From Aureococcus anophagefferens (lineage: Eukaryota > Sar > Pelagophyceae > Pelagomonadales > Pelagomonadaceae), in the NCBI RefSeq assembly GCF_000186865.1, contig NW_008705561.1:2172219-2236218 (forward strand): DNA of 64,000 nt, read 5' to 3'. A program made the translations under genes and the position numbers. The notes beneath the pieces were generated by a model. That model did no database searches and was not told the origin of the DNA. It saw only the letters and a list, made by a program, of their open reading frames with translations. Shown piece by piece: positions 5,589 to 60,110 of this stretch. How positions within the stretch are numbered: the first letter of the stretch is position 1; every line of letters starts with the position of its first letter.

Positions 5589-8500
5589 TTAAGCCTCGTC
5601 GTCGTCCTCCTCCTCCTCCGACGACGACGACGCCGCGGCGCCGGCGCCGTCGACGAAGTTGCCGAGGTCCTGGTCCTGGTGCTCGACGGCGGCCGCGCGC
5701 TGCCGCAGGACCCAGTAGGACCGCGTCACGGAGCGCTGGTCCGCCTCGTCGAGGCGCGCGAGGACGCCGTTGATCTCGGCCAGGTCGTCCTCGTTGGCGA
5801 TGTCGAAGTCGCCCGACTCCATCTTGTCCACGAGGTCGCGCGCCTCGGGCGACCTGTGTGGAATTCAACCACTGGTTTGGGTGGTCCCCACCAAACTTGA
5901 GAATTCTCTAGCTCGGTCAAATCGAAGTCGATTCGGCTGATTTTTGGACGAATCGATTGCTCTCGTCGAGTTCTCGAAGCACGGCAGAAAGCCTCGCGTC
6001 GAAACGGTCGCATACGCGCACATTGAAGTCGGGTTGAAGATTTGATTTCCACACAGCGGGCGACGCCAGAGGAAAAAGATCGGCGAGCGCGTCGACGGCC
6101 CTCGCGTCCAGCCGCAGCGTCCGCGGGCTCCGCGCGAAGCCGAAGACGAGGCGCAACGAATCCTCGTCGATCTGGGGCCCGGAGGACCCCCGCAGGCCCA
6201 CGAGGAACGCGAGCTTCGACGCGAGCGGCAGCGGCGCCGTCGGCCGCTTCTCGAGCGTCCGCCGGAGCGCGTGCGCGACCTTGGCGGGCACGCGCGCGTC
6301 GCGCGCGTCCAAGCTCACGAGCGCGCCGTTCGCCTCGAAGGCGAGGGCGAGCTGCTCCATGGCCGCCGTCGTCGACCGGGGCAGCGACGCGGCCCGGAGG
6401 CTCAGCTTCTCGAGCCGCGCGTCCGCCCGCAAATACGCGGCCAACGACGCGACGCCCAGCTCGCCCAGGTCGTTGAGCCCCAGGTCCAGGACGCGCGGGC
6501 CGGCGCCGCCCGCGCGGCGCCGCGCCCCGAGACCGTGGAAGACCGCCGCGACGCCCACGGGGCCGAGGCCGCAGTTCCGGAGGTCGAGCGCCTCGAGCGG
6601 CGCGGTCCCCCGCTCGAGCTCGCGCCCCACGACCAGCGCGCCGGCGTCGCCGATGCGCGCGTTCGCGAAGGCGAGCGTCGGCGAATTCTTGACGGCGTGG
6701 ACGTCGACGCCGTTGAACGCGCGGAGCGAGCCGTGGTCGCGCGCCGCGGCCGCGACGTCCGCGGCCGCGTCGCCCAGATCGACGCCCCGCGCGTCGACCG
6801 CCTCGAGCTTCGCCGCGCAGCGGATCGCCGCCGCCACCAATAGGCCGCAGGCGCAGCTCCGGCCCAGGTCCTCGGGCGTCCGCGCGGCCGCGAGCGTCAA
6901 CGCGCGCGCGTCTCCCGTCCGCAGCCCCTCGAGGTCCAGCGCGAGCAGCCCCACCTCGAGCCGGTCCAGCAGGGGGAACGCCCCGATCAGCGCCTTCTGC
7001 GCCGCGGGCAGGCAGAGCGCCGGCATGCCGAAGAGGTCCACGCGGAGCCGCCGCGGGTACGCCGCCGCCGCCGCCTTGCTTGCCGCCGAGAACGCGTCGA
7101 CGAGCAGCACGAGGTTCGCGAGGTCCGCGTGCGGGTTCGTCCAGAACTCGCGGTCCTCGTCGTCCTTCTCGTCGTCGAGGCCCGCGACGTGGAAGAACGC
7201 GCGCGCGTCGACGACGCCGCCGCCGTCGGCCGCCGCGGCGCGGACCGCGGCCAGATCCAACGCCGCGCGCGACGACACGGCCGCCGTCCGCAGGCTCGGG
7301 TTCCGCGCGAGGCCCCGGGCCAGCGCCGGGAAGCCCGCGGCCACGGGCAGCCGCTTGCGGCTGTACGCGCGGTCGTCGTCGTTGCGGTCGTCGTCGCTGC
7401 CCGAGCTCTCGAGCTCGACGACGCGCTGCCAGAGCCGCGCGCGCCGGTGCCAGCGCACCTCGTCGTCGTCGTCGCCGCCGCCGGTCGCCGCCGCCTCGTC
7501 GCCGCCGGCGTCGTCGCCGTCGTCGAGCGCCTCCGCGCACCACCGCGTGAGCCGCGGCGCGGACCACTCGTTGCCGCTGACGTCGACGGTCTCGAGTTTG
7601 GGCAGGTCGTCCCCGAGCACGTCGCCGAGCCGCTCGAAGGGCGCGACGGCGATGGGCCCGTCCATGGTCGTGAAGCAGCAGTTCTTCAGCGCGAGGCGCC
7701 TCAGCGTCGCGCCGCGCGCGCGCAGCGCGTCCGCGAGGTCGTCGACGATGTCGTTACTCCGCCACTGCGCGCCGCACCTGGGCAGCACAAGAGTGATTCA
7801 ACGTCGCTTCAATGTGAGTGTTCCGCGCGCGCGCCCCGGAAAAAGCATCCACGCTTCGAGACCGTTCCGAGAGATGATCGCTCGTCCAAAAATCAGCCAA
7901 AACGAGTGGAAACCGGCCGAGATATGAGCCTTTGAAGTTGGGAATCTCGCTCTCTTGTCCTGCCCCGCGCCGCACGCGTCGTTGTCGCAGACCTGGCAGG
8001 CCAGGTTTAGGTCGACGTTGAGCGCGTGGTGCGTCGCGCAGGCGTTGCAGAGGTGGCCGTTGCCGAAGAGCTCGGGCGTCATCGGGTGCGGGTGCGCGGA
8101 CGGCATCAGATCCGCGTTCGACAGGTTCAGGGCTTCCAAACCCGCGCAGTGCGCCAGCAGGCTCAGCACCATGCGCGCCGACGCGCGATTTAAATGCGCC
8201 GCCGACAGGTCCAAGTCCAACAACGCCGCGGCGCCCGCGCCGAAGAAGAGCCGCAGGTCCAGGCCGTTGACGTGCTGCAGCCGGGGGCGCGCGCGCGCCG
8301 CGGCCATGAGCGCCTCGAGCCCCGTCGACGACACGGCCGTCGTCGACACGGTGACGCGCGTCGCCTCCTCCGCGAGGGCCGCGACGGCCGCGACGCCCGC
8401 GTCCTTCAGCGACCGCCGGAGCCGCGCGTGCGGCGCCGCCCGTAAATCCGCGACGTCGAGCACGCACGCGCCGAGCCCCAGACTCGCCCACGCGCCGTCG

Positions 8501-11500
8501 CGCGCCGCGTCCGCGAGCGCCGCGCCGACGACGACGCCCGCGTCGAGCGTGTCGCGGCAGTCGACGACGCGGAGCTTTTCGCAGCGCCGCAGCGCCGCGA
8601 CGAGCTCCAAGGCGCCCGCGGGGTTCATGCCCGTGTCGTGCGCGCGAGGCAAGGCGACGGCGCCCCGGGGCCGCGCGGACGTCGTCGTCCGCTGCGGCGG
8701 CGGGTTCCAGACGGACATGTCGAAGGCTAGCGACTGGTGCGGCAGGCGCAGCTCCTCGAGGGCCGCGCGCGCGTCGTCGGACGCGACGTGGTCGAGCGCG
8801 CGGGCCAGCACGACGCAGCCGCCGGCCTCGAGGCGCCGCGGCGGCCCGGCCGACGCCTCGCGCACGAAGCGCCGCGGCACGTTCGTCTCGCGGCGGACGA
8901 CGCGGCTCGCGGCGTCGACGTAGGCCAGGTCCACGGCGCCGTCGTCGCGGAGCGCCGCGACCGTCGCCGGGTAGAAGCGGCGGCCGCCCTGGAAGCGCGC
9001 CTCGACGCTCTGGTCGACGGACAAGGGGTGGTCCGCGTCGAGGTCCGGGCCCAGGGCCAACACTTTCAGGAACGGCGGCGCCGTCGCCTTCAATCGGCCC
9101 ACGGGCACGCCGCAGAGCAGCTCGATGGCGGGGCAGTCGTCGAGGAGCGCCGCGAGCGCGCGCCCCGCGGCCTCCGTCAACGCGTTCGACCGCGCGTCCA
9201 ACGTCCGCAGCGACGGCGTCGCCCGCGCGAAGGCCGCCAGCGCCTCGACGCCTCGTATGTCCGGGATCCACGCCGCGTGGACGTAGTCCAGGTAGAGCTT
9301 GGACCGGTGGCTGCCGCCGCGCTTCCGCGAGTGGAACGTCTCGCGCTCGAAGCCCGGCCGCCGCTCGGCGCCGACGCAGCACCGGTTCGCGGACACGTCG
9401 AGCTCCGCGAGCGCCGGCGTTTGGGCAACCCGGAGCGCGTCGCAGAGCGTCGCCACGGCGCCGCCGCAGAGCAGGTTGCCGCTCAGGTCCAGCTTCACCA
9501 ACGTCGGCGCGCTCGTCGTGAGGCGCGGCGCGAGCTGGTCGACGGCCGCGGCCCCCAGACCGCCGTTCGAGATCGCGACGGTGCCCAGGGTGTGCGTCTC
9601 CGCCAGCAGGCTCACGAGCGTCATGGCGTTGCGGTCGCCGACGGCCCCGTCGAGGCGCAGGACCGCCGCGCGGCCGCCCGGGCTCTCCAACCCCAGGAGC
9701 GCGCGCGCAAGCGCGGCGACGTAGGCCCCCCGCCGCCGGCCGTCGTCCGCGGCCGCCAGGTCCCCGAACATCTGGACGACCTGCTGCCACCAGCCCCGCT
9801 CGAAGAGCGCCGACGGCCGGCCGCCGGGCGCCAGCGCCAACCGCGCGAACGTCGCCGCGAACGCGTCCGCGCCCTTCCCGGCGTCCGCCTCCGCGTCGAA
9901 GTACAGCGCGCACTGCTCCGCCGCGAGGAACTCCTGGAACGTCAGATGGGCGAACCGGTACTTGTCCGCGCCGCGCTCGCTGAACCAGGCCAGCAGCGGC
10001 AGGCGCCCGCGCTGCGCCGCGTCCGCGACCGCGCGCCAGTCCGCCTCCGAGACGCCCGGCGTGTCGCGGACCGCGTCGAGCACGAGGTCGTCGCCGAAGT
10101 CGCGCGTGCCCCGGCCGCCGTCGGCGCTGTGGGCGCGCCAGGCGACCTTGCGTAGCAGGGACCGCGCGACGCCCGGCGGCGCGTCGCCGAGCTTGTCGAG
10201 CATCGACGTCAACGCCGTCCGGTAGACCAGCCCCCGGTTCAAATCCCCGGCCAAACCCTCGCCCTGGAAGACCGACAGCGTCACGGACAGGAGGAGCGGG
10301 TTCGCGGCCATGCGCTGGAGCGCCGCGTTCAGGCGCAGCTGCCCGAGAAACGTCTCGAACTGGCCGTCGTCGCCGAGCCGCTTCCGCGCGATCGCTTCGA
10401 TCTGTCCCTGGTCCAGCTGCAGCACGCGCACGCGCCGGAAGCGCGCGTAGGCCGGCCCCTCGAGCGCCTTCATCTCCCGCGACGTCACGACCAGCGGGTG
10501 CCGCGCGTACTCGTCGCGGATCTCCCGCTCGAGCCTGTGCCGAATTCAAATCTTCAACTCGACTTCAATGTGAGCGTACGCGACAGTTTCGACAAAATCT
10601 CTTCGGCCGTGCTTCGAGAACTCGACGAGAGCAATCGATTCGTCCAAAAATCAGCCGAATCGACTTCGATTTGACCGAGCTAGAGAATTCTCAAGTTTGG
10701 TCAGGACCACCCAAACCAGTGGTTGAATTCGGCACAGGCTCGAGCCGCGCGTCCAGCGCGCCCGCCTCGTCGACGCCGTCCAGGATGAGCAGCAGGCGCC
10801 GCTCCTGGCGCGCCTTGTCGAAGAAGCGCCAGCGCGCCTCGGCGCAGGTCTGGCGCAGGTAGGCCCAGGCCAGCGGCGCCGCGGGCCGCGCGGTTTCCGG
10901 CGCGAAGACGCGGACGACGTCGCAGACCCGCACCAAACAGGGGATGAGGTACGCGTGGCGCGGCTCGCGCATGGTCCAGGTCAGCAGCTGCTTCGCGAAG
11001 GTCGTCTTCCCGCCCGCCGGGTCGCCGACCACCAGCAAGGGCTCCGCCTCGAGGTCGCGGCGCCGGACGTCGCGGAGCGTCTTCGACGACGAGCCGTTCG
11101 GCTTCACGTCGAAGGTGCCGTCGCCGTTGACGCGGATGACGCGCGCCTCCGCCGGCGGCGCGTCGGCGACGCGCGCCCAGACGCGCGCGTTGAGCGCGAC
11201 CTCCTCGGCGAAGGCGCTCAGCACGTCGTCGAAGGCCTCGGCGTCCGCCAGTTCGCAGTCGCGCGCCTCGAGCCGCAGCGACACGCACTGCTGCATGATG
11301 TCGAGGTCCTCGCCCGTGATGGGGTTCACGATCGTGCCGTGGTCGAGCTGCGCCGACGCGCGGTAGCGGCTCCGCTCGTCCTCGAGGAACCGCGCGCCGT
11401 CCCAGGGCTTGGCCGTCTCGAGGAGCGCGGCCCGCGGGACCGCGACGCAGCCGCGGAGCTCCAGCGCGCCCGCGGCGCCCGCGGCGAAGATCGCCGCGCA

Positions 11501-12997
11501 GTCGACGGCGAGCTTGCGCTGGCGCCAGCCCGACGTCGCCGGCGGCTTCGCCGCGGCGTCCAGCGACGCGACGCAGAGCTCGCCCAGCAGGTACCACGGC
11601 GGCGGCCGGCAGTCGAGCACGTCCGCGACGCGGTCCGCGGCGCCGAGCAGCACCTCGTTGAGGTGCGCCGCCGCGTGGCGCAGGGACGCCGTCTGCAGGC
11701 CCTTGAGCACCTCCGCCTCGACGACGGGCGTGTCGTAGCGGCTCTCCAAAACCGCGGCGACGAGCGCCGCGGCCAGGCCCGACGCCTCGCGGAGCGCGGC
11801 GTCGGCGGAGCCGCTCTGCGCCGCGGCCACGAGCTTCTGGCCGCCGCGGAGGGACCCCGTCAGCGCCAGCAGCTCCGGCGGCGGCGCCTCGCCGGACCGG
11901 ATGGCCGCCGCGAGCGCCGCGCCGTCGTCGCGCGTTAAGCCGAGCTGCGCCGTCAGATCCGCCGCCTCCAGGCCCGCGGCGTCGCGCGGCGTCATGGGGA
12001 AGACGGCGTCGGCGACGACGAGGTCCCAGGCGAAGCTCAGCGGCTCGCTCAGCGCCGACACGGCGTCGACGCCCGCGCCGAGCGCCGCGGGCCAGTGGCC
12101 CCCGCCGTCGACGTCGACGACGCACCGCGCGAGGTCCAGCGCGGGGAACGCGACGTCGGGCACGAAGGCGCTCTCGACGCGGGCGCCCCGCGCCTCGAGG
12201 GCCGCGCGGAGCGTCGCCGCTGCCGCCGCCAACCCCTCGAAGGACTTGCGGCGGTCGTCGACGGACGGGCCGACGGCGAGGAAGTTGCGGCCGTCGCCGC
12301 GGCTCCGCAGCGCGGCCGCCGCCGCGTCGAAGCCGCCGCCGCCCAGCGCGCCCGGCGCGACGGCCTCGACGCGGTCCTCGAGCGCTCGCAGGAGCCGCGC
12401 GACGCCGTCGCCGTCGACGGAGCCCGCGCGCCGCAAACTCCGCTCGAAGTCGCCGCCGGGCCCGTAGACGTCGCCGACGACGCGCGCGAAGAGCCCCCGC
12501 CGCCGCGCCGCCGCGGCGACGGCGGCCTCGGACGCCGCCTCGTCGCCGCCGGCGACGAGCCCGCCCGTGGCCCCCGCGGCCGCCTCGCGGTTCTCCGTCC
12601 GAAACGCCGACACCGACGACGTCACGGACGCGACCTCCGTCCGCTGCGAGAAGAAGCCCGGCGCGTCCCAGCAGGCGCCGCCGCAGGTCAGGGCCACGCA
12701 CCGCGCCTGGCCCGCGGCGATCTGCCGCGCCTCGGACGCGACGCCGAGCCGCGTCGCGTTGCGATGCGCGGCCTCGTAGGCGCCGCCGTCGCCGCCGACG
12801 CGGAAGAGCAGGCGCGCGCCGACGACCTCGGCGCCGCCGCCGTCGAAGCAGCGGCCGAGGCACACGACCTCGTCGCCGCGGGCCAGGACGAGGGACGCCT
12901 CGGCGCGCGCGCGGCCCGCGTAGGCGACGCGCAGGAGGCCGAAGAGGGCGTCGGGTACGCCGGCCTCGAGCGTCACCGCCGTTTCCACGTCCATCAT
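5589..12997 (-). CDS. giant NACHT-LRR (NLR-like) protein with three introner introns
   Basis: Exons on the minus strand: 12997-10746, 10534-7976, 7777-6065 and 5853-5589. They sum to 6789 nt, an exact frame of 2262 residues. Residues 1-640 are an unassigned N-terminal region with a small Tudor/SH3-like stretch near 600. The NACHT ATPase has Walker A GDPAGGKTT (K664) and Walker B LLLILDGVDE (D740-E744), followed by a winged-helix-like YRFAHLTFQEFLAAEQC near 945-960. Leucine-rich (RNI-type) repeats such as LVKLDLSGNLLCGGAV follow to about residue 2170, interrupted by a Tudor-like insert near 1250-1295 (GGRRFYPATVAALRDDGAVD). The tail is acidic (SSSSEEEEDDDEA). The start at 12997 (MMDVET) is preferred; an in-frame ATG at 13123 is possible. 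NLRs are nucleotide-switched sensors in animals and fungi; a sensing role here is inference. Confidence 0.8.
5854..6056 (+). mobile_element. introner copy 1 (family A, 203 bp), intron 3 of the NLR-like gene
   Basis: The termini are inverted repeats (CTGTGTGGAA ... TTCCACACAG). An 8-bp duplication CGGGCGAC flanks it at 5846-5853 and 6057-6064. On the gene (minus) strand the duplication reads GTCGCCCG, giving a GT donor, and the element end gives CACACAG. The intron is therefore 6064-5854 (211 nt), and splicing restores LFPLASPEARDLVDKM. The element lies antisense to its host gene, judged by the conserved core GGCTGATTTTTGGACGA. Confidence 0.93.
7778..7967 (-). mobile_element. introner copy 2 (family B, ~190 bp), intron 2 of the NLR-like gene
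   Basis: Flanked by CGCCGCAC at 7770-7777 and 7968-7975; on the gene strand this is GTGCGGCG, a GT donor. The ends are CTGGGCAGCACAAGAG and, reverse-complemented, CGGGGCAGGACAAGAG. The intron is 7975-7778. Splicing restores ACQVCDNDACGAQWRSNDI, inside a Cys-rich knuckle. The core TGATTTTTGGACGAGCGAT reads on the minus strand, so it is in sense with the host gene. Confidence 0.92.
10535..10737 (-). mobile_element. introner copy 3 (family A, 203 bp), intron 1 of the NLR-like gene
   Basis: Flanked by the palindromic duplication GCTCGAGC at 10527-10534 and 10738-10745. Both ends carry CTGTGCCGAATTCAA, a variant shared by left and right termini. Exact removal of one duplication plus the element joins DGVDEAGALDARLE to REIRDEYARHPLVVTSRE, a continuous NACHT domain. 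The donor must then be GC (GCTCGAGC). The internal GT at the element edge would add 10 nt and break the frame, unless an acceptor 13 nt downstream is used. Confidence 0.92.
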
Positions 12998-13247
12998 CTC
13001 GCTATGTTGATGTTGGTTGGTTGGTCGCGCCGTCGACGCACGACTGCGCCCGCCACTCGACGCGCGCTCCAGCCGGAGATTATTTCGACGAGGGTCCGAG
13101 GCGAGCCTCGAGCGCTGCGGCAATATGGCTGCATCAAACCTTCAACCGGGCCTTCAACGTGGCGAGACGACACAAAAGGTTCAGACGCCTAACCAGGCCC
13201 AAGCAGCCTCCAAACCACGAGCGAAGCGACTTTAGAACACGACCCCG
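12998..13247. other. 250-bp upstream region of the NLR-like gene
   Basis: It separates the NLR-like gene start from the stop of the co-directional SET gene. It holds an in-frame upward extension of the NLR frame (alternative ATG 13123) but no clear promoter element. Confidence 0.4.
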
Positions 13248-14417: not shown

Positions 14418-14548
14418 TGCAAGCTCAGACTACTCTGTCAGAGGCGCATCGCAGAGCCGAGCAGGGGTAAACATCTCGTCCTTGCAATCTCCTTGAAGTG
14501 TGGCAGAGATGGCTGGAGAGCGGCCGCCCAAGCGCGTCGTCACGCGAC

Positions 14549-14617: not shown

Positions 14618-14627
14618 GTAAAACACC

Positions 14628-17600
14628 ATGCGCCACAAGCCGAAGCGGCGCGACCACAACGATGAAAACTCCAGCGTTGCGCGGTCGCCGCGATCGCCGC
14701 AGTCACCGCGGCCGCAGAAACCGACGACCAGCCTCACCACCTTGTGGTGCGCGCTGGGCCTCGTCGTCGCGACGTTTTGCTTCCTCGTCTGGCGGCTCGA
14801 GGCGGATCCGCCGGCGCGCGCCAGTCAGCCGCCGCCCAAACCGACGCGGCCGGCGCCGCCGCGCGCGGTCGTCACCGCCGTCGCGGCCGCGGCCACGGTC
14901 GTCACGCCGGCGGCCGCCGCGCGCGCCGCGGCGAACCTCTGCGCGCCGTCGGCCTGGCGCAACGGCACGGACCTCAAGGGCGGCGACCTGCCCAACGGCT
15001 TCGTCGAGGCGGCGACGGCGGCCGAGTGCTGCGGCAAGTGCGCCGCGCGCGGCAACTGCGTCGCCTGGACGCTGGCGGAGGGCTGCTGGCTCAAGGGCGC
15101 GCGGTCCGCGGCCTCGCCCGACGCCAAGCTCGTCTCCGGCTTCATCGCCGGCCGCGTCGGCGTCGACGCCGCCGCGCTGAAGAAGCTGCGCGCGCCGGCG
15201 TGGGTCGGGACGACGCCGCAGGAGAAGCGGCGCGCGCGGACGGCGCCGTTCGCGTGCCGCGGCGACCGGGCGACGGCGCTCGACGGCGAGCGCCACCTCT
15301 ACGCCGCCGCGCCCGCCGCGGACTGGTCCGAGGCCTACCCGCTGGGCAACGGCGCGCTCCGGGGCGGGAAAAAGGGTGCCCAAAGGCTCCTCTCTCGGCC
15401 GTTTCCCGCTCGTTTCGGCTGATTTTTGGACGAGCGATCATCTCTCGGAACGGTCTCGATGTTTTTTTCTGGAACGGCCACGCTGAAGCGAATCACCCAG
15501 GCGCGCTCGGCGCGCTCCTCGGCGGCGAGCCGTGGGTCGGCGGCGTCGCGCTCGCGGAGGAGTCGCTCTACGAGACGCGGACGAAGGTCGAGAAGGCGCA
15601 CGCGGCCGCGCGCGCCGCCGGCGACGCGAAGCGCGCCGAGCGCGCCAAGGCCGGCAAGGCGACGCCCGACGACGCGAGGTGGGCGCGGCGGCCGAAGACG
15701 CCGCGCGACGCCTTCGCGAACGCGCGCGCCGCGCTCTTGGCCGGCGACGTCGCCGAGGCCCACGAGCAGAGCCGCTGGCTCGACGGCGGGCCCGTGGCGT
15801 CGTTCATGGGCCTGGCGACGCTCCGCTTCGTCGTCGGCGGCGACGCCGCGGGCGCGCCGCGGCCGCCGGAGCCGCCGCGGGACCCGAAGAAGCCGCGGCC
15901 GCCGCGGAGCCTCGCCGCCGAGCTCGCCCTCGTCGCGCGGAGCGACGCCGTGCGCGGCTACGCGCGGTCCCTCGACGTCCGCGACGCGGTCTTCGAGGCG
16001 TCGTTCGAAGCGCGGAACGAGACGCGGCGGCTCACCGCGCTCGCGTCGCGGCCCGACGCCGTGCTCGCGCTGCGCTTCGACTGCGCGGGCCCGGAAGGCG
16101 CCTGCGCCGCCGTCGAGTTCGGCCTCGACCGCGCGGGCGCCGGCGACGCCGCGGCGCTCCCCGCGGGCGGCGGCTCGAGCGACGTCGTGCTTCTGGCGAG
16201 CGCGCCCGCGGGCGACGACCTGGCCTGGGCGGCCTGCGCGGTCGCGGTCGACGCGGCGCCGGCGGCCGTCGCGCCGGACCTGGACCCGTCGCTCCTGGCC
16301 CGCGTCTTCGGCGCGGAGACGCCGCCGCGCACGGCGACGCGCCGCGGCGAGGCCGTCGTGCTGCTCGTCGCGGGCGCGACGTCCTACGACGGCGCGGACC
16401 CGCGGGAGACCTGCGTGGCGCGGCTCGCCGGCGCGGCGCGCCGCGGCTGGGACGACCTCCGGGGCCGCCACGTCGCCGACTTCCGCGCGGCGGCCGGAAG
16501 AGCGACGCTGCGGCTCGCGGACGCGGCCGAGCCGCGGGGCCGGCCGACGGCGGAGCGCGTCGAGCGCCTCGGCGCGCCCTGCGGCAACGGCACGGCGCCG
16601 GCGACGGCGCCGAAGCTCCTGAGCCTCGCCTTCGCCTACGGCCGCTACCTCCTCGCGTCGTCGAGCCGGCGAGGCGGCCTGCCCGCGAACCTCCAGGGCG
16701 TCTGGGCCGACGGCGCGGTGCATCGGCGTCCCCGCGCGCTTCTCTGAACTTACCCATGTTTTTTCTCTCCTCCTAGGTCTCGCGGCGCCGTGGAACGGCG
16801 ACTACCACCTCAACATCAACCTGCAGATGACGTACTGGGCGGCCTGGTCCGCGAACGTCGGCGAGGCCGCGGCGCCGCTGGTCGACTTCCTCGAGGGCCT
16901 CGCGGCGGCGGGCGCAAAGACCGCGCGCGAGTGGTACGGCGCGCCGGGCTGGGTCGCGCACGGCTACACGGACCTCTGGCGCGACGCGCGCGCGCTCGGC
17001 GAGAACAAGTGGGCGCTCTGCGCGACGTGCGGCGCCTGGGCCGCGCTCGCGCTCTCGGAGGCGTCCGAGCACGCGCCGGGCGACGCTTCCAAGCTCGCCG
17101 CGGCCGCGCGCGTGCTCGGCGGCGCGCTCGACTTCTTCGAGGGCTACCTGCTGCCCGTCGCGGCCGGCGACGCGGGCAAGCTCGGGCTCCCGAGCGCCCC
17201 CGCGCTGCTCTCCGGGCCGTCGACGTCGCCGGAGAATTCGTACCGGCTCAACGGGTCCGCGGCGAGTCTGAGGGGCGCGTCCAAGGCCCGCGACGACTGG
17301 GGCTTCGTCGCGCTGTCGCCCGCGCTCGACGTCGCCGTGCTCCATCGCCTGGCGACGGCCTACGGGGAGCTCTGCGCGCGCGGCGCGGCGTGCGCGGCGG
17401 CGACGGAGGCCTTCGCGGCGCGGCTCCTCGCAGGGCAGGAAAAGAGAGCGAAATTCCCAACTTCAAAGGCTTCTTTCTCGGCCGTTTTCCACTCGTTTTG
17501 GCTGATTTTTGGACGAGCGATCGTCTCTCGGAACGGTCTCGAAACGTGGATGCTTTTTCCGGAACGCGCGCGCGCGGAACACTCACGTTGAAGCGACATT

Positions 17601-18739
17601 GAATCACCCTTTTGCTGCCCAGGCTCCTCGCGTCGTTGCCCCACGGCGGCCGCCCCGTCGCCGACGCCGAGGGGATGCTCCGCGAGTACCCCGTCGCCGT
17701 CGGCGGCCGCGCGGCGGCCGCGCCGGACGAGGCGCACCGCCACTTCTCGGGTCTGTTTGCCCTCTACCCGGGCCGCCAGCTGTCGCCCCTCGACGACGCC
17801 GACGGCGCGGCGGCCGCGGCCGCGCGCACGCTGGACCGCAAGCTCGCGGCCGGCGGCGGCCACACGGGCCGGTCGCGGCGTCCGACGATTTTCGAGAGAT
17901 TCGGGGTGGGAGAAATCGTCACCGTCGTGCTTCGTAGGCTGGTCGCGCGCGTGGGCCGCGAGCCTGGCGGCGCGGACGCTCGACGGCGCGGCCGTGGAGC
18001 GGTCGCTCGTCGAGCTCGTCGCGGGCTACTTCTGCGGCAACCTCCTCGCGACGCACCCGCCCCTCCGGCCCGAGCCCAAGCTCAAGGCCGCGGGCTGCGA
18101 CACGCGCTTCGCTGCGTGTGGAATGGCCCCGTCCAGCAAGACTTCAGAACTCTCTGGCTCGATTCGGCTGATTTTTGGACGAGTCGTCTGCTCTCGTCGA
18201 GTGCTCCACGAACGAAACCGTCGCATACGATCTTATTGAAGTCGGGTTGAAGATTCGGTGTCCCGCCCAGGTGCTTCGAGCGCGCGCCGCCGCCGGGCCG
18301 CGCGGGGCCGCCGGACCGCGGGATGATCACGTCGTCCGGGGACGTGTTCCAGCTCGACGGCAACCTCGGCTTCCTCGCCGCGGCGACGGAGGCGCTCCTC
18401 CAGTCGCACCGCGGCGCCCTCGCCGGCGGGCCGCCCGTCGAGCTCCACTTATTGCCCGCGCTGCCGCCGTCGTGGCGCGCCGGCGCGGCGACGGGCCTCC
18501 GCGCGCGCGGCGGCCTCGAGGTGGACCTGCGCTGGGCCGTCGGAAGGCTGACCAACGCGACGGTGACCGTCGTCGAGGACGGCGGGGTGGGGGTCGCGCG
18601 CGTCCGCAGCCGCGCGCGGCTCCGCGCCGTCGGCGGCCGCCTCGAGGCCGCGGCGGGGCCCGACGCGCGCGGCGACCACACGGCGACGCTCGCGGGGCTC
18701 GAGGTGGGGGTGGCGGTGTGGCTGTTCGCGGTGGGGTGA
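14628..18739 (+). CDS. membrane-anchored GH95-like glycoside hydrolase (alpha-L-fucosidase family)
   Basis: Six exons: 14628-15351, 15501-16712, 16777-17422, 17623-17867, 17938-18103 and 18271-18739. They sum to 3462 nt, 1153 residues in frame. A basic N-tail and one membrane span ([17 protein letters not shown], about 39-56) suggest a type II protein. A Cys-rich PAN/apple-like region follows ([20 protein letters not shown]). The GH95 landmarks are [19 protein letters not shown], '[20 protein letters not shown]' then LQGVWADG, '[17 protein letters not shown]', [18 protein letters not shown] and [20 protein letters not shown]. The family cleaves alpha-1,2-fucosyl or related alpha-L-galactosyl linkages; substrate here is unknown. 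All introns fall inside conserved blocks, and only the exact splices given restore them. Confidence 0.85.
15360..15500 (+). mobile_element. introner copy 4 (family B, 141 bp), intron 1 of the GH95 gene
   Basis: Flanked by GCGCGCTC at 15352-15359 and 15501-15508. The intron 15352-15500 with a GC donor restores [18 protein letters not shown] donor at 15376 would instead retain 24 nt in frame, adding 8 residues to the motif. The left end is CGGGGCGGGAAAAAGGGTG; the right end is truncated (AATCACCCAG). The core is in sense with the gene. Confidence 0.88.
16713..16776 (+). other. spliceosomal intron 2 of the GH95 gene, GC-AG, 64 bp
   Basis: Only the phase joining GAC-G to GT-CTC gives [15 protein letters not shown], the GH95 motif. 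The donor is then GC (GCGCGGTG). A T-rich tract ending CTCCTCCTAG precedes the acceptor. No flanking 8-bp duplication is visible, so this is an ordinary or fully decayed intron. Confidence 0.75.
17431..17622 (+). mobile_element. introner copy 5 (family B, 192 bp), intron 3 of the GH95 gene
   Basis: Flanked by GCTCCTCG at 17423-17430 and 17623-17630. The ends are CAGGGCAGGAAAAGAG and CTTTTGCTGCCCAG. The intron 17423-17622 uses a GC donor; no GT lies close by in the element. Splicing restores [16 protein letters not shown]. The core is in sense with the gene. Confidence 0.92.
17868..17937 (+). other. 70-bp GC-AG intron 4 of the GH95 gene, possible decayed introner
   Basis: Removal joins GGHTG to WSRAWAAS, the conserved GH95 motif. 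The intron starts GCCGGTCG and the next exon starts GCTGGTCG, an 8-bp repeat with one mismatch, the same geometry as the introners. The interior has none of the introner core. Confidence 0.75.
18112..18270 (+). mobile_element. introner copy 6 (A-like left end, B-like right end, 159 bp), intron 5 of the GH95 gene
   Basis: Flanked by GCGCTTCG (18104-18111) and GTGCTTCG (18271-18278), an 8-bp duplication with one C/T difference. The left end CTGCGTGTGGAAT is family A; the right end CCCGCCCAG resembles family B. The core GGCTGATTTTTGGACGA is present, in sense with the gene. The intron 18104-18270 (GC donor) joins AAGCDT to [12 protein letters not shown] donor at 18116 would retain 12 nt in frame. 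Confidence 0.85.
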
Positions 18740-19085
18740 GTTATTTTGGGGTAGTTTTGGGGGGGCGATTCGGGTCGCGGGAGGGGCTTTGAGGCGGGCA
18801 CGTGGATTCGCGCGCGTTTACCCCCCCTCATCGTCATCCTGGTTGAACTTGGGTTTTCTGGGGTCTGGGAGGTTTCCCGCTCGGTGTGGGAGGTGTGGGG
18901 GGTGGGGCGGGCGTGATTTACGTTAGTCTAAACTAGCCTAGGCTACCTTCAACTGGCACGCGCGCATTGGGATCCCGACGAGCACAAGGCGCGTGCCTTC
19001 GCCGCTGCCCGGCACGCCCCTCGCCTCGCTGTTGCTCCTCTCGTGCTCTCGCGGATTTCCACGCTCTCGATCTTCTCTGTCAACA
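18740..19085. other. 346-bp intergenic region between GH95 and FEA1-like genes
   Basis: Lower GC than the genes, with G-runs on the + strand (18740-18920) and a TA-richer stretch (TTACGTTAGTCTAAACTAG near 18915) before the FEA1-like start. It probably holds the 3' UTR of one gene and the promoter of the next. No convincing TATA box or RNA gene was seen. Confidence 0.4.
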
Positions 19086-35210: not shown

Positions 35211-35485
35211 CGTTGTTGCTGTTTTAGCTTCCGATCCCTTTCCTTGACTCAGCTTTCCGCGCAATTAGAGTATCAACGGACCCGAGTCACCTCAGACGGG
35301 TGGCGACCCGCGGCCCGGTTAACAAAAAAAGGTTGTCGACTGCGTAATAACACGGTCTCGGCTCATCCAAATTACATATCTGTGTAAAATGACGAAATCG
35401 TCACCGATTACAATGTTAAACTGAAACTGAGACTATTGAACAGATATTGCATATTTATTGAATGTTCAAGCAAGTGCCGCTAAGC
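35211..35485. other. AT-rich divergent intergenic region
   Basis: Of the intergenic regions read, 35330-35461 is among the most AT-rich (runs such as AAATTACATATCTG and GCATATTTATTG), between the divergent TAZ/U-box and LamG-Sel1 genes. A bidirectional promoter is likely. No RNA gene was seen. Confidence 0.45.
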
Positions 35486-43624: not shown

Positions 43625-43650
43625 TCTCCTTAGCAGCAGCAGCAGCAACG

Positions 43651-47053: not shown

Positions 47054-47274
47054 GGTGTGTCGACGGCGGCGTCGGCGCGGGGCGCAGGGGCCACGCGGCG
47101 TCACAGCTCGCGGCGAAGCGAGACAGCAATGACTGCTCTGTGGCGGATACCAGGTATGTTGAAGTGGGCTGCCGCGGCCGCATCCACTTAAACGCCCGCC
47201 CCTGAAGCCCTGGATTCTTTCCGTCAAGGGTTGGTTTGGCAGCGCCGCGGCGTCGGCGCCGCCGGGCGCCTACC

Positions 47275-50200
47275 ATGGTGGCCGAGGGCGGCTACGCGGA
47301 CGTGTCGTCCATGGACGCCGTGATCCGGGATCTGGAGAGCCGCTACGACCGGCTCCAGGGCCTGCGGCAGCACTTGGGGACGGACGTGGCCAAGGAGAAG
47401 CTGCTGGCGCAGATCGGCATGGTCGACCCCGTCGACGCGTCCGCGAGCCGCGACGAGCGGCGGCGGCTCAAGAAGCGGCTCCTGCGGGAGCTCGACGGCG
47501 AGAAGGACCACCTGCGGAAGACGCTCGACGTCGTCGAGGCCGCGCGGCGCGCGGCGCCGCGGCCCGCGGGCGCCGCGGGCCCGCGCGCGTGGCGGCCCGC
47601 GTCCGCGTCCGCGAGCCTCGGCCGGTCGGCGCCGCCCGCGGCGACGCCGAAGCCCCGGGGCTCCGCCGTGACCGCCGCCCGGGCGAAGCGCGCGCTGCCC
47701 AAGGGGGAGGACGAGGACGCGGCGATGCTCGCGCTGCACCGCGGCGACGGCTCCGTGGGCAGCGGCGCGCACTTTCTCTCGACGCCCGCGAAGCTGCCGC
47801 CGCCCCAGGGCCCGGCGCCGCCGCACCCCCTGGAACTGGGCCGCGCGTCCCTCGAGGGCACGGTCGTCCTCACGCAGGACTCCGTCGGGCCCGGAGCGTT
47901 CGCCGCGAACGCGACGAGTTCCCTCGCGACGCCGAACATGCGACCGGCGACGGCGGAGGCCACGGTGCACACGCGCGAGCCGCGGAGCCCCGAGGCCGTC
48001 GACGACCTCCTCGCGCGCGCGCGCGCGGCCGTCGCGGACCGGAACCGGCCGCGGTCCGCCGCGCGGCGGCCGCGGTCGCTGCGGCCGCGCGAGCCGAGCC
48101 TCGCGGGCTACGGCAACGGCGGCTACTTTTTGACGGACGTGCTCCGCGAGTGCTACGCTCTACGCGAAAAGATCCGGTCCGACCCCGTGCTCGTCGCCGC
48201 GGGGCGCCGCGACGCCGGCGGCGCGCGGCGCCGGAGCCCCGCGAGGAAGCCGTCGGCGGACGCGGCCGCGCCCGCGGCCGCGCCCGCGGTCGGCGCCACG
48301 ACGACGCTGCTCCTCGAGGCGGGCGACGACGGCCGGCCGGAGGAACCTCCATCGCCGCCCAAATCGCGGGAAAACTCGCCCGTCGGCCGCCTCGACGCGC
48401 TCCGGGGCCGGCGCCGCCGCCGCCACCGCCGCCGGCCCAAATCCGCGCCGAGCTCCGTGAGCGACCACCTGCTGAAGACGACGGCGTCGTCGTCCGTGAA
48501 GAACGTGGGCCGCCGCGAGAGCCGCCACCGCCACGCGGTCAACAACTGGTTCTCCGCGTCGCACGCGTACAAGGCCGACGCGCCGAAATTGGACAAGCGG
48601 ACGCGGTCCGAGACGATCCGCGACGGCGACGGCCGGGGCTTCTTACAGACGACGACGGAGTCCGCGGGCCGCGACGTCCACAGTCGCGAGCGCATGGAGT
48701 CGATGATCACGCGCGAGAACGCGAACTGGTTCAGCCCGTCGTCGAAGACCAAGGCCGTCGCGGCCCACGGCGACGCGCCGCCGTCGCCGGACCGGTCGCC
48801 CGAGAGCCGGTCGCGGCCCCGGTCCGCGCCCGCGGGCGCGCGGTCCCCCGCCGACGACGACCAGGGCTCCGGCGCCTCGCCGGGCCGGCCGCGGTCGCCC
48901 GGCCGCCGCGCGTCGTCCGCGGGCGCGGCCCGCGGCGGCCGCCGGCGGTCGAGCGCCGGCCCGCGGCGCCGCTCCGTGTCGCGCCGCGAGAGCCGGCGGC
49001 CCCACAGCGCGCCCGCGACGCGGAGCCGGTCGCCGAGCCGCCGCAGCTCCGCCGCGCGGCCGCGGTCCGCGTCGCCGCCGCGGCGGCGCCGCGACGACGA
49101 CGACGACGCGCCGCGCGCGCGGCCCCAGACCCAGAAGTTCGGCCGGTCGTCGCCCTTCGCGCGCGCGCCGCGGCCGAGCCGCCTCGACCCGAGCTACGAC
49201 GGCCCCTGGCGCCTCGGGGAGATCGGCTGGTTCCGCATCCCGGAGGACAAGAAGGCGCCCAAGGACGCGGAGCCGCGCTTCCTGCGCGTGCGCGTGTCGT
49301 CCGTGCACCTCCGGGACCGCGACTCCGGCGGGGGCATCGGGAGCCTGACGCTGGCGGCGCTGCGGGGCGGCAAGGTCGACATCCCGCGCGAGTACCTGCG
49401 TGGAAATCAATCGGTGAGCCGGGTTCTCCCGACGAAACTTCGACTCTCGAGCTCGGTCGCATCGACGTCGATTCGGCTGATTTTTGGACGAATCGATTGC
49501 TCTCGTCGAGTTCTCGAAGCGAGGCCGAAGAGCTCGCGTCGAAACGTTCGCATACGCGCACATTGAAGTCGGGTTGAAGATTTGACGTCCGCGCAGGCGA
49601 GTACCAGGTGCCCTTCGACGCGTCGCCCGACGCGGTGAGCCGGCGCCCGCCCGGCGCGCCGCCGCCGCTGCAAAAGGCCAGGAGCGCGCCCCACCTCTCG
49701 CCGGGAAACGGCGAGGCGGCGGCGCCCCTCGCGAACGTCGGCCAGGGCTACGTGAAGATCGCGAAGCCGCTCAACGAGGACGCGCGGAAGAGGGGCCGGA
49801 AGTCGCGGCGGACGACGAACCCGCAGGCCATCGCGTCGGAGATCCTGCGGCGGGGCGGGCGCATCTCGGAGGTGCTGCGGGTCACGGCGGAGGCCTACGA
49901 GCGGCGCGAGCAGCGCGCGAACGCCGCGAAGACGATGCAGCGGAATCTGCGGATCCTGTGCGGCGTGCCGAAGAAGGGCGACCGCATGACCTTGGGCGAC
50001 GCCATCCTGCGCTACCGCCTCCACGTGCGCCACGACGTGAGCCACACCATCGAGGAGGAGGACGAGGAGGAGGAGGCGTCCGCGGCGACGCGCATGCAGG
50101 CGATCATGCGCGCGCGGCGCGACCGCGAGGCCGTCAAGGGCCGCCACGCGGCGGCGGCGAAGCTCCAGCGGCTCCAGCGCAAGCGGAGCTTTCGGCGGAA

Positions 50201-52453
50201 GCGCCGCGGCAGCGAGTTCCGGCGCGACGCCGAGCTCCGCGGGCGCGGCGCGGACTTCGTGAGCCACGACCGCGACGACGCGCTCTACCTCGACAGCCCC
50301 TTCCCGAACCAGGAGACGGCGGCGCGCGCGCTCCAGGCGCGGCTCCGCGGCGACCGCGCGCGCAAAGACCGCCGGCGGGAGCACGCGGGCGCGTCGCGGC
50401 TCCAGGCGCGCGTCCGGGGCCGCCGGTCGCGCGCGGCGGCGTCGCGGACGCGGATCCTCCGCGACTTCGCGCCGGGCCCGGCGAGCCGCTTCGCCGACGC
50501 CGACGCGGCGGCGCGCGTGCTCCAGCGGTCCGCGTCGGCGGGCCGCCTCCGCGCGTCGCCGCCGCCGAGCCCGCCGCCGCCGCGGCCGCGGGCCGTCGAC
50601 GTCGACGAGCACCGGCGCGAGCTCGCGGCCCTCGACGCCGCGGACGAGGACGCGCGCGCGCGCGGCGCGGAGCGCGAGCGCGAGTTCCAGGACGCGCGCG
50701 TGCGGTCGCTGCAGGCGCGCGTCCGCGGCGGCTGCGCGCGGCGGCGCGCGCACAAGCACGCGCGGCGCTCCGTCGTCGAGCAGCGCCAGGCGCTCGCCGA
50801 GGCGCTCATGGACGTCGAGGGGTCGCGGCGCCAGGCCGAGGAGGCCCTCGCGGCGGAGCGCGCGGCGGCCGCGGCCGCGCGCGACGAGCAGAACCGCGAC
50901 CACGCGGCCAAGGTCCTCTTCTACGAGGAGGAGCTCAAGGCCGCGGCCTGGCGCGCCGCGCAGCAGCGCGAGCTCGAGGCGACGGTGCGCGACCGCGACG
51001 CGGCGCTCCAGGCGACGCGCGGCGAGCTCGCGGCGACGGTCCGAGGCGCCCAAACCGAGGCCGCGCGGCTCGCGGCGTCGCTCCAGTCCGCCGAGGTCGA
51101 CCGGCTGCGGAGCCGCGAGGCGCTCGAGGCGGCGGCCGAGGCCGCGGAGGCGAGCGACCTCATGGCCAGGAGCTTACGGGCGAAGCTCGCGGACGCGGAC
51201 GCGGCCGCGCGGGCGCGCGACGCCGAGGCCGCGGCCGCGGCCAAGGACCTCGAGCTCGAGAAGGCCCACCGGTCCAACGCGGTCAAGGACCTGCAGCTCC
51301 TCGAGCACGACGCGGCGCGGCGGCTCCGCGAGCGCGACGCGGCCGTCGCCGAGCTCGAGGCGGCGGCCGCGGCGGCGGCGCGGGACCACGCGGACCGCGC
51401 GGAGCTCGCGCGCCAGACCGTGGAGCACCTGCGCCGGACGGCCGCGGACCGCGAGGACGACGCGCGCGCGGCGTCCGCGGCGCTCGCGGAGGTCCGCGCC
51501 GAGGCCGCGTCCAAGGACGCGGCCGTCGCCGCGGCCGCGGGNNNNNNNNNNNNNNNNNNNNNNNNNNNNNNNNNNNNNNNNNNNNNNNNNNCGCGCGGGC
51601 CGCGGCGCTCGAGGACGCGGCCAAGGCCGCGGTGGCGCGCGCGGACGCCGAGGCCCGCGCGGCGGCGCTCGAGGAGGCCCGCGAGGCCGCGGTCGCGCGC
51701 GAGCGCGGCGCGGCCGCGGCGCTCGAGGCCGCGCGCGCGCGCTTCGCGGCGGAGGCCGACGAGGCCCGCGCCGAGGCCGGCGCGGAGCGCGCGAAGCGCG
51801 AGGCCCTCGAGGCGGAGAAGGACGCCCTCGAGGCCGCGCGGCGCGACGCCGTCGCGGCCGCGGCGCGCGCCGGGGCCGAGAAGGACGCGCTCGCGGCCGA
51901 GGCCGCGGCCGCGCGCGAGGCGCTCGAGGCCCGGCGCGAGGCGCCGGCGCCCCTCAAGGCCGCCGCCGCGTCGCCGGACCCGCGGCGCGAGCGGCCGCCC
52001 GCCGAGGCGCCCGTGCCCGCCGTCGCCGCGGCGACGCCGCTCCCGCGGGACCGCGGTGCGTTCGAGACGCCCTACGCCGAGCCGCCGTCGGCAAATTCGG
52101 CCGCCTACACGCCGGCCTTCGAGCCCGAGGGCACGCCCGCCGCGGGGCCCGCGCCCGCACCCGACGACTGGGAGGAGCTCTTCGACGACGCCGAGGGCCG
52201 CGCGTACTACTGGTCCAAGGCCCGCGACGAGTCGCGCTGGGACAAGCCCGCCTGCCTCGTGACGCTCTACTCGGACTGGGAGAAGCACTTCGACGCGGCG
52301 TCGCAGCACTACTACTACTACTCCGAGAGCCGCGGCGAGTCGACGTGGGACGCGCCCGAGCCCACGCGGCGGCCCGGCGGCGCGACGCCGACGCCGCGCA
52401 AGTGGACGCCCGCGAAGAGCGCCCGGCCGACGCCGTCGCGCAGGCTCCCCTGA
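47275..52453 (+). CDS. very large IQ-motif, coiled-coil, double-WW protein, broken by an assembly gap
   Basis: The start is ATG 47275 in a good context (ACCATGG). The first exon ends at 49387, then an introner, and the second exon runs to the stop at 52453. The frame before the 50-N gap (51542-51591) differs by one from the frame after it, so the true gap length is not 50. Features in order: an N-terminal helix (DAVIRDLESRYDRLQGLRQH), a basic Arg/Ser-rich region (48780-49150), Leu-Gln-x-x-x-Arg IQ motifs (50080-50200, 50310-50440, 50690-50770) for calmodulin, a long Ala/Arg/Glu coiled coil (50800-51960), then two WW domains (52164-52250 and 52275-52370). It suggests a cytoskeletal or centrosomal scaffold; no family name is certain. 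Confidence 0.75.
49396..49596 (+). mobile_element. introner copy 8 (family A variant, 201 bp), intron of the IQ/WW gene
   Basis: Flanked by GCGAGTAC at 49388-49395 and 49597-49604. The intron 49388-49596 with a GC donor restores VDIPREYQVPFDASP. The left end is CTGCGTGGAAATC, so a GT at 49400 could also be used, keeping 12 nt in frame (adds LREY). The core GGCTGATTTTTGGACGA is in sense with the gene. Confidence 0.9.
51542..51591. other. assembly gap, 50 N
   Basis: It lies inside the coiled-coil coding region. The flanks are repetitive Ala/Asp/Arg codons (CGCGG-rich), which likely caused the break. The coding frame shifts across it. Confidence 0.99.
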
Positions 52454-52583
52454 GTAAAGGGGACGTCGACTGTCTTGGTCGTTGCCGTCGTCGATGAAGG
52501 CAACAAAAAGCTGTTTACTCTCAACCGCCTCGACACGATGGTGGCCCGACGATCCAGCCCCGCCGCCGGGCGATAGGGTCCCC

Positions 52584-54080: not shown

Positions 54081-54096
54081 ACTGCGTCGCTCCTTG

Positions 54097-55178: not shown

Positions 55179-55180
55179 TC

Positions 55181-55265
55181 GGTGCGATGCTTTCACGCGT
55201 GCGGTTGTCAATGCACGCAATTAGGTGCGATGCTTTCACGCGTGCGGTTGTCAAATCACGCAATA
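55181..55265. repeat. ~41-bp direct repeat, two copies, period 43
   Basis: GGTGCGATGCTTTCACGCGT followed by GCGGTTGTCAA begins at 55181 and again at 55224. It sits immediately upstream of the minus-strand membrane-protein start, so it is in the 5' UTR/promoter. Each copy carries an ATG and a nearly repeated CACGCAAT. Confidence 0.88.
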
Positions 55266-55476
55266 CCGCAGCTCATGCCCTAAGGAGCCCAGCTAAAGTT
55301 TCGGCAACGTTGGCGACCATGTTGATGCTGAATCGTGTAGCGGACCCGAGTGCGATGGAGCTTTGATGATGGAACGCCGCACCAGTTGATAGTTTGCGGC
55401 GTCGTAGCGCGCGACTGGTTTTCGCGTTGGCGCGTCCGCCGCGAAACACGCTGCGGCGCCGTCCGCGCCGGCGGCC

Positions 55477-57894: not shown

Positions 57895-58089
57895 CGACCC
57901 GGGGCGGCGGAGGAGCAATGGGCCGCGCGGAGGGGGAAGGGGCCGCGCGCGCGGGTTGTCCGAACGCGGCAACGCCGCAGCACATTGCATGCAAGATTCC
58001 GGCCGCGTGGGCAATGGGGGCCGTGAGATTTGCAAGGTGCGCCCGCTTGGCAATGGCAAGGCCGTGAGCCTTGCTAGGTGCACACTGGC

Positions 58090-60110
58090 ATGCGACCGCT
58101 CCTGCGGCTCGCGCTCTGGTCGCGCGTCGCGCGCGGCATCTGGCCGACGCCGCGGGCCTGGAGCACGCCGGCGGACGCGGGCGTCCGGCGGCTCCCGGAG
58201 GCCGGCCTGCCGGCGCTGACGATCGACGGCTGCGAGGAACCGTGGTGCGGCCGCATCGCCGCCGCCTACGACCGCCTCGCGCCGCCGCGGCTCGCGCCAG
58301 GCACGCCGCCGCACGCGCGGCCGCCCGCGGCGGTCGCCGCCGAGGCCGCCGCGTTCGGCGCGCCGCGCGAGCGCGCGGCCGCGGCGCTCGGCGTCGGGCC
58401 GTCGTGGTACGAGGACGACGTCGCGCTCGCCGGCCGCCGGGACGCGGGCGCGATCGCGCGCGTCGTGGTCTCCGTCGGCGGCGGCGCCGGCGACGAGTCC
58501 TACGCGCTGCGGCTCGCCGAGGGCGACGACGTCGTGCGCGCGTCCGCGGCCGTGTGCGAATCAAATCTTCAATACGACTTCAATGTGAGCGTATGCGACG
58601 GCTTTGACGCGAGTTCTTCGGCTGTGCTTCGAGAACTCGACGAGCGTTGGTCGGGACGTCCCAAACCAGTGGTTGATTCGCACACAGGTCCGCGGCGGCG
58701 CCCGAGGGCGCGCTCCGCGCGCTCGCGTCCCTGGGCCAGCTCTGGCGCTGGGACGGCGCGCGCCACGCGCTCCCGTCGGCGTTCGACGTCGAGGACGCGC
58801 CGCGCCACGCGTGGCGGGGCCTGCTCCTCGACACGTCGCGCCACTTCTGGCCCCTCGCGCGCGTCCACCGCGCGCTCGACGCCATGGAGGCGCTGAAGCT
58901 CAACGTGCTCCACTGGCACGTCGTCGACTCGCAGTCGTGGCCCTGGGCGGCGAACGCGACGGCGCCGCGCCCCTACTGCGGCGCCTGCGTCTACACGAGC
59001 GCCGACGTCGCGGCCGTCGCCGCGGCCGCGCGGGACCGGGGCATCGCGGTCGTGCCGGAGCTCGACGCGCCGGGCCACGGCGGCGCGGCGCCGGCCGCGG
59101 CGACCTGCCCGGAGCTCGCGGCGACGGACCGCGGCGCGGTCGCGCGCGGCCGGGGCCCGGGCGGCCGCGACGGCGGCGCCGGGAGCACGGAGCACGGCCT
59201 CGACGCCGTCGCCTGGGGCGCCGCCGGCGCCGCCGGGGTGGACGACGCCGCGCGCGCGCTCTCCGCGCTCGTCGGGGAGCTCGCGGCCGCGGCGGGCGCG
59301 GCGCACGTCCACGTCGGCGGCGACGAGGTCGACGCCGGCTGCTGGGCCGAGGACGCGGCGCGCCGCGGCGCGGCGCCGGACGCGGGCTTCGAGGCGGCGG
59401 CGGACTGGGCCCGCGCGCGCGAGGCCGCGCTGCTCCGCGCGTCCGCGGACGCCGCGCGCGCCGCGGGCGCGACGCCCGTGTTCTGGGACGACGCGCTCGA
59501 CGCCGGCGACCCCGCGACGCTCGCGGGCGGCCTCGTGCAGATCTGGCGCGGCTGGCTCGGCGTGCCCGGCCTCCTCGCCTACGCGAGCACCCTCGGGCTC
59601 GCGGGCGCCATCGTCTCCGACGGCATGTACCTCGACTACGACCACGAGGGCTGGGACCAGGTCCTGCGGCGCGGCCGGCTCCCGGACCACGCGCTCGTCG
59701 TCGGCGGCGAGGCGTGCTCCTGGGGCGAGCACAACGAGCGCCTCGACGCGCGGCTCGTGAAGCTCGCCGCGGCGGCCGAGCGGCTCTGGGGCGGCGCCGC
59801 GGCGGACGCGGCCCGCGCGGGCGACCTCGTCGGCCCGCGGCTCCGCCTCTCGGCGCTGCGCTGCCACCTCCTGCGGCGCGGCCACGACGCTACGCCGCCC
59901 GTGCTCCCGGACCTCTGCCTCGCGGGGCCGCCGCGCGGGCCCGCCGACGCCCCGCCGCCGGCGTCGAGGGCGCCCGCGGTCGTCACGATCGCCGCGCCCT
60001 GGTACCGCTCCCGCGCCGCCGCGAGACTCGAGGACGCGGCGCTGGCCGCCGCCGTCGCCTTCATCGTCGCGTCCCGCGTGCGGAGGCGGAGGCCGAATAA
60101 GGAGGATTGA
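58090..60110 (+). CDS. GH20 beta-N-acetylhexosaminidase, membrane anchored
   Basis: Exons 58090-58541 and 58688-60110, 624 residues in frame. The start ATG 58090 begins a signal-like MRPLLRLALWSRVARGIW. The N-terminal GH20b-like region runs to about residue 165, and the introner lies inside it. The TIM barrel starts RGLLLDTSRHFWPLARVHRA and shows the GH20 marks 'NVLHWHVVDSQSWPW', 'VVPELDAPGHGGA', the catalytic Asp-Glu pair D363-E364 in VHVGGDEVDAGCW, and GGEACSWGEHN near the end. These act by substrate-assisted hydrolysis of terminal GlcNAc/GalNAc. A C-terminal hydrophobic segment (LAAAVAFIVASRVRRRR) may anchor it in Golgi, lysosome or plasma membrane. Strong family call; location is inferred. 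Confidence 0.88.
58550..58687 (-). mobile_element. introner copy 9 (internally deleted family A, 138 bp), intron of the GH20 gene
   Basis: Flanked by GTCCGCGG at 58542-58549 and 58688-58695. The ends are CCGTGTGCGAATCAA and TTGATTCGCACACAG, again matching each other better than other copies. The conserved GGCTGATTTTTGGACGA core is missing, so this is a deletion derivative. The intron is 58542-58687 (GT donor). Splicing restores VRASAAAPEGALRALASLGQ. The element is antisense to its host. Confidence 0.92.

Follow-up and report, generated by a model that had tools for sequence, protein, structure and literature searches.

Transposon-like introners in five genes of Aureococcus anophagefferens appear to recruit their 5' splice sites from the duplicated target

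Nine short elements lie within the coding sequence of five genes in a 64,000-nucleotide stretch of the Aureococcus anophagefferens genome (NCBI RefSeq assembly GCF_000186865.1, contig NW_008705561.1, positions 2,172,219 to 2,236,218; hereafter the window, with positions counted from its first nucleotide). With a probability that we put at about 95%, they are introners, i.e. short non-autonomous DNA transposons, similar to miniature inverted-repeat transposable elements (MITEs), which become spliceosomal introns on landing in genes. The features that speak for this reading, namely the duplications, the inverted ends, the splice dinucleotides, the repair of the reading frame, the copy number, the insertion in both orientations and the distribution of intron phases, can be seen directly in the sequence. 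According to the mechanism that we propose, insertion would duplicate 8 bp of the host gene, the downstream end of the element would bring CAG as the 3' splice site, probably together with the branch point, and the duplicated gene sequence would provide the 5' splice site, which would need little beyond a G followed by T or C (GY). By excising one copy of the duplication together with the element, the spliceosome would recreate the original coding sequence and leave the protein unchanged. In one family of the elements (family I) CTG...CAG is typical of both ends, thus either orientation should work, while in the other (family II) AG is present at one end only, which would account for the single orientation seen in genes.

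To locate the elements, the surroundings of the positions given in a first-pass annotation of the window were scored for 8-bp direct repeats and inverted ends; all nine, 138-203 bp long, were found where that annotation had placed them. Three are in gene A (5589..13141, minus strand): introner 1 (element 5854-6056, 203 bp, family I; 5846..6064 with the duplication CGGGCGAC, whose copies occupy 5846-5853 and 6057-6064; predicted intron 6064..5854), introner 2 (7778-7967, 190 bp, family II; 7770..7975 with the duplication CGCCGCAC; intron 7975..7778) and introner 3 (10535-10737, 203 bp, family I; 10527..10745 with GCTCGAGC; intron 10745..10535). Gene B (14622..18930, plus strand) carries introner 4 (15360-15500, 141 bp, family II-like; 15352..15508 with GCGCGCTC; intron 15352-15500), introner 5 (17431-17622, 192 bp, family II; 17423..17630 with GCTCCTCG; intron 17423-17622) and introner 6 (18112-18270, 159 bp, with ends unlike each other; 18104..18278 with GCGCTTCG/GTGCTTCG; intron 18104-18270). 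The last three are also on the plus strand: introner 7 in gene C (35462..39194; element 36783-36985, 203 bp, family I; 36775..36993 with GTTCCGCG; intron 36775-36985), introner 8 in gene D (47206..52262; element 49396-49596, 201 bp, family I; 49388..49604 with GCGAGTAC; intron 49388-49596) and introner 9 in gene E (58078..60110; element 58550-58687, 138 bp, with family I-like ends, in which the 17-base core described below was not found; 58542..58695 with GTCCGCGG; intron 58542-58687).

As the first-pass annotation had claimed, an 8-bp duplication flanks each element, perfect at eight sites and with one mismatch at 18112. In random draws from the window, an identical pair of 8-mers occurred at these spacings with a frequency of 0.023%, and a pair with at most one mismatch with a frequency of 0.24%. 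The same annotation had described the ends of all nine elements as CTG...CAG, which is strictly true of both ends for five of them (5854, 10535, 18112, 36783 and 49396) and does not hold for the other four, where the gene-upstream end reads CGG, CAG or CCG. Common to all nine are CAG at the gene-downstream end and GT or GC at the start of the duplication on the coding strand, and the predicted introns run GT...CAG in introners 1, 2, 7 and 9 and GC...CAG in introners 3, 4, 5, 6 and 8. In seven elements 11-14 of the first 14 bases pair as terminal inverted repeats; pairing is weaker at 15360 (5) and 18112 (7). The G+C content of the elements is 47-57%, that of their flanks 71-81%. When the nine elements were used as similarity-search queries against the window (E up to 1e-4), they matched these nine places only, and no tenth element came to light.

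The claim that removal of one duplication copy plus the element restores the frame was also borne out: with 150 nt kept per side, at least one open frame runs through all nine repaired sites, as compared to two of nine when the element is left in place. The lengths of introns 1-9 modulo 3 are 1, 0, 1, 2, 2, 2, 1, 2 and 2, so eight of the nine would break the frame if retained. After removal of the introners, genes A, C and E each become a single open frame, of 2,310, 1,173 and 628 residues, respectively. With the frame picked by eye, seven of the introns are in phase 2 and two in phase 1.

To judge how general these properties are, the elements can be compared with copies elsewhere in the genome. 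A genome-wide count of the 17-base core, which the first-pass annotation had suggested, gave 3,819 matches with up to two mismatches in the 49.05-Mb assembly of 86 contigs (1,879 and 1,940 on the two strands, about 78 per Mb), as compared to a single match (0 + 1) for the reversed-pattern control. The sample used for the statistics below was drawn from 85 sources. Besides the window, these were twenty 10-kb stretches (three picked for matches to hAT transposases, the rest around cores among the matches listed), four short ones, and sixty of 451 bases around exact contig 1 cores, again among the matches listed. It contained 106 core hits with up to three substitutions; boundaries could be called for 91, and 88 elements with at most one mismatch in the duplication were kept. 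The three that were dropped are window elements 4 and 6, whose boundaries were resolved separately, and a copy with two mismatches in its duplication (L021).

The sampled elements follow the splice-site rule almost without exception. Where just one end can supply an AG (64 elements), the duplication begins with GY on the corresponding strand in 63; the frequency of GY in the flanks would predict about 20.5%. In the 24 elements that have two AG-capable ends, GY is found on one or both strands without exception. Altogether 87 of the 88 fit GY...AG and none lacks an AG-capable end; the sole element without GY (L051) also fails the reading-frame test.

This reading-frame test is the strongest evidence for working introns. 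The coding frame was called separately on each side of 86 elements, using codon statistics from three window genes; two of the 88 had flanks too short for the test, and the window accounts for six of the tested elements, of which four belong to the training genes. After removal of the element and one duplication copy the two sides agreed in strand and frame in 77 of the 86 cases, as compared to seven with the element present. For the 78 elements with a length not divisible by three, the corresponding numbers were 70 and zero. The coding strand of each of the 77 agreeing cases is one on which GY and AG fit; for five of them, either strand fits. In the 74 confident cases, intron phases 0, 1 and 2 occurred 30, 20 and 24 times, which does not differ from the 28.8, 18.6 and 26.7 expected from the positions of GY (p=0.80). 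The phases thus match the distribution of GY, and the need for a usable dinucleotide suffices to explain them.

Proteins in the databases bear on two of the nine junctions. Across introner 7 in gene C, P0024 (97% identity), P0025, P0026 and P0027 are all continuous and have no insertion. P0025 and P0026 are A. anophagefferens proteins, whereas P0027 is from another pelagophyte, Pelagophyceae sp. CCMP2097, and its identity to gene C is 49% in the search listing and 54% in the alignment. At gene E, P0001 matches the joined translation with 96% identity over 99% of its length and is continuous across the introner 9 junction. P0001 and P0024 may derive from spliced or from empty alleles. The matches named as A. 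anophagefferens (P0002, P0003, P0025 and P0026) share near-identical stretches with the window genes. Both public A. anophagefferens models at gene E, P0002 and P0003, are disrupted, and, judged from the sequence, introners seem to be mis-modelled in some public annotations.

Several observations weigh against the introner reading. Splicing and cut-and-paste movement are deduced from DNA sequence. P0002, an NCBI protein of A. anophagefferens corresponding to gene E, reads on into introner 9 (VCESNLQYDFN). We take this to be a misannotation; P0002 translates the start of the introner, which indicates that the annotation overlooked an element that this gene also contains. In the frame test nine of the 86 elements disagreed in frame, five of them with confident calls on both flanks; these five may lie between genes or close to other introns, or be broken. 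Of the 106 core hits, 15 had no callable boundaries and three more were dropped as implausible. It must also be noted that the sample comes mostly from one contig and was selected by the core, thus copies without the core, such as introner 9, are under-represented. Finally, the genome searches described below found no autonomous partner with matching ends.

What else could the elements be? They act as introns in frame and phase, as would ordinary old introns which are alike through gene duplication or intron sliding and are not transposons. Such an origin is hard to reconcile with similar sequence in unrelated genes, with perfect 8-bp duplications varying from site to site, and with insertion in both orientations and thousands of copies, and we regard its probability as negligible. 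It is also conceivable that the elements are unspliced MITEs sitting in broken or mispredicted genes. The evidence being at the DNA level, and the P0002 model reading into one of the elements, are in line with this possibility, but it would leave unexplained why GY is on the single AG strand in 63 of 64 cases (about 20.5% expected), why the coding strand matches in 77 of 77, and why the proteins of relatives are continuous across two of the nine sites. We think it very improbable.

A third possibility concerns the way of spreading. RNA-based copying, i.e. reverse splicing into new transcripts followed by reverse transcription, has been proposed for fungal introner-like elements, and the location of the elements in genes, at splice-competent sites, would agree with it. 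However, 8-bp duplications, inverted ends and the insertion of family I both ways relative to the gene (15 vs 13 in the frame-agreeing set, a count that relies on family labels which placed four family-I-like copies in family II) are the marks of a DNA transposon, and by reasoning reverse splicing should yield the sense orientation only; we would be much surprised if this route were the correct one. Spread by horizontal transfer was considered and rejected. The core was found in 28 prokaryotic-contig and three viral-contig stretches, but the best introner alignments in these cover just 17-34 bp around the core, and about 30 exact core matches would be expected by chance in 257 billion bases according to our estimate.

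Returning to the introners and the splice sites that they would use, donors were predicted for the 80 elements of unambiguous strand. They were GC in 48 (60%) and GT in 32. As GC makes up 78% of GY in the flanks, GT is favoured (p = 0.0002), yet GC predominates. At donor positions +3, +4, +6, +7 and +8 there was no detectable difference from the flanks; at +5 the difference was weak (p = 0.017), G being rarer there, and at position -1 C is enriched (60%). At the other side of the intron, the usual 3' end of family I in both directions is TTGATTTCCACACAG, and that of most of family II is the related TTGAAT...CTGCCCAG. Judged from its sequence, the TTGAT/TTGAA-like motif just inside the downstream end is probably the branch point.

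A filter on survival, and not a preference of the transposase, seems to lie behind the GY rule. A symmetric transposase ought to prefer GY...RC (R being A or G) on both strands, but among the 24 elements with two AG-capable ends GY is present on both strands in six only. A palindromic target preference as the cause of the rule is therefore disfavoured by the 18 elements in which one strand alone has GY.

The two families are distinguished by their ends. Family I elements are about 203 bp long and have CTGTGTGG-type ends on both sides. Family II elements (about 192 bp; 53 copies after removing four family-I-like ones) have the CTGGG-type sequence at one end only, where it gives CAG downstream, and their upstream end is CAG (40), CGG (10), CCG (2) or ACG (1). 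At the AG end, the final three bases are invariant in the 40 exact-length family II copies; position 2 of the upstream end is off-consensus in 23% of the same copies, and the mean divergence of their interior is about 4%. With the ends left out, the median identity to the consensus is 95.7% for these 40 copies and 90.6% for 24 full-length family I copies; the copies are recent, though not all young.

With respect to the interior of the family II copies, 41 carry the AG at one end and 12 at the opposite end. The family II tree requires five changes of the AG end, as compared to 11 in shuffles, and its well-supported branches force at least two. Repeated flipping of the ends could not be established, as a tree in which the 12 copies were held together was not rejected (p-AU 0.171); two directional sub-lineages of family II may be enough to explain the AG ends. 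We can tentatively go one step further, to a scheme which we consider less likely than not. In this scheme the donor is nearly free of information (any GY suffices, mostly GC, with positions +3 to +6 near background), and all recognition resides in the inverted end, in which the site for the transposase, the branch point and the 3' splice site would coincide. The directional family II would have arisen from a CAGGG...CCCTG form by a change of one last-but-one base that created AG, at least twice, once per end.

The 17-base core, GGCTGATTTTTGGACGA (e.g. at 5935, 15417 and 17500 of the window), is common to families I and II despite their different ends. In family I it is located, as seen by eye, within the inverted repeat TCGATTCG...CGAATCGA. 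Elements work with the core in both orientations. The element at 18112-18270 has one family-I-like and one family-II-like end, and the mismatch in its duplication affects the second base of the donor; since the two ends differ, it is suggestive of a hybrid or older copy.

If the introners are non-autonomous, a transposase should mobilise them. Pfam profiles were searched against the genome exon by exon, thus the counts are lower bounds. The hAT dimerisation domain (PF05699) had four weak matches and the P-element RNase H domain (PF21787) one, whereas MULE (PF10551) and Merlin-type IS1595 (PF12762) had none; KDZ (PF18758), DUF659 (PF04937) and P-element GBD (PF21788) also had none in this genome, but these three profiles were silent in the control genomes as well. 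Three of the hAT loci were opened to 10 kb, and no convincing duplication with introner-like inverted ends was found around the transposase. One of them (L014) contains an ordinary introner at 19-221 with its own duplication, and the fourth locus (C13) nearly duplicates 2.7 kb of the one on C1. One hAT protein had four partial matches and no second full-length copy.

The single P-element-like match is a transposase fragment on contig 25 (C25; together with the introner-like stretch that follows it, L103:3160-4330) with in-frame TAG codons, of which no second copy was found; a search with a 139-residue piece of it found no homologues. About 450 bp past the P-type domain there is an exact 17-base core, in a diverged introner without clear ends. 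On the other side of the fragment 3 kb reads N, and matching ends were not found in the readable part. With about 78 cores per Mb, the core adjoining the domain may be there by chance. We regard the P-type transposase of contig 25 as a candidate mobiliser, as a lead only. A literature search for introners paired with autonomous hAT elements found none.

To our knowledge, introners are the best-supported mechanism for bulk intron creation. DNA-transposon introners were reportedly described in A. anophagefferens by Huff, Zilberman and Roy in 2016 (in Nature), who are also said to have found that intron phase in Aureococcus follows the distribution of usable sites. For Micromonas pusilla the same study reportedly described short DNA transposons of independent origin that carry one splice site and take the other from the duplicated target; our elements have the same logic of one carried and one target-derived site. 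The first-pass annotation had related the elements to the introner logic of Micromonas and Aureococcus, and the transposon structure, the donor in the duplication, the frame repair and the copy number all support this. The introner finding is thus correct and already known for this species, and the boundaries and the protein repair are added detail. What was measured here, namely the proportion of GC donors and the division into one bidirectional and one directional family, may also be in the 2016 paper.

It is useful to compare these elements with the published descriptions. Those of Aureococcus introners, at second hand in PMC7789003, PMC10228655 and PMC9481584, give direct repeats and terminal inverted repeats, insertion in both orientations with co-opted splice sites (PMC10228655) and a characteristic length of about 210 bp (PMC9481584). 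Our elements come from the same species and have the same repeats, introns of about 210 bp, co-opted sites and both orientations, and nothing contradictory was found in these descriptions. Gozashti et al. (2022; PMC9860276) describe families with duplications and inverted ends in which the 3' site is carried and the 5' site is recruited from the duplication (the type of their Fig. 2B), and our elements share this splice-site logic. They differ from the Aureococcus sp. family of Fig. 2F in the same paper, in which both splice sites are part of the element and the message becomes 12 bp longer, whereas our elements add nothing. The share of GC donors ranges from 0 to 50.0% across the families of PMC9860276, as compared to 48 of 80 predicted donors here. 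The introner elements of Amoebophrya, as described in PMC7789003, also have inverted and direct repeats at the intron edges and are thought to spread like transposons; they belong to the non-canonical introns and their direct repeats are 3-5 nt, whereas here the introns are GY...AG (nine of nine in the window, 87 of 88 in the sample) and the repeats 8 bp.

This work is of value as a confirmation from an assembly whose contigs are several megabases long, and for a number of clean, readable cases together with a measured set. Such a set can be used to test what the minimal requirements of a 5' splice site are, and in what way the end of a transposon becomes a 3' splice site.

The host genes are of different kinds. 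Gene A had no match to a Pfam family in the pieces scanned. Gene D, which the first-pass annotation called the IQ/WW gene and described as having an assembly gap, does contain the gap, at 51542-51591; its first exon matched no Pfam family, and the later piece that was scanned was in another frame. Gene C encodes a laminin-G-like domain, and Sel1 repeats (PF08238) are on record for its relatives. Gene E encodes a glycosyl hydrolase of family 20 (hexosaminidase), and gene B a PAN domain and a glycosyl hydrolase of family 95 (GH95). Besides its three introners, gene B requires, as judged by eye, an ordinary intron at about 16700-16780, with a polypyrimidine tract and TAG, and apparently another one before 18104.

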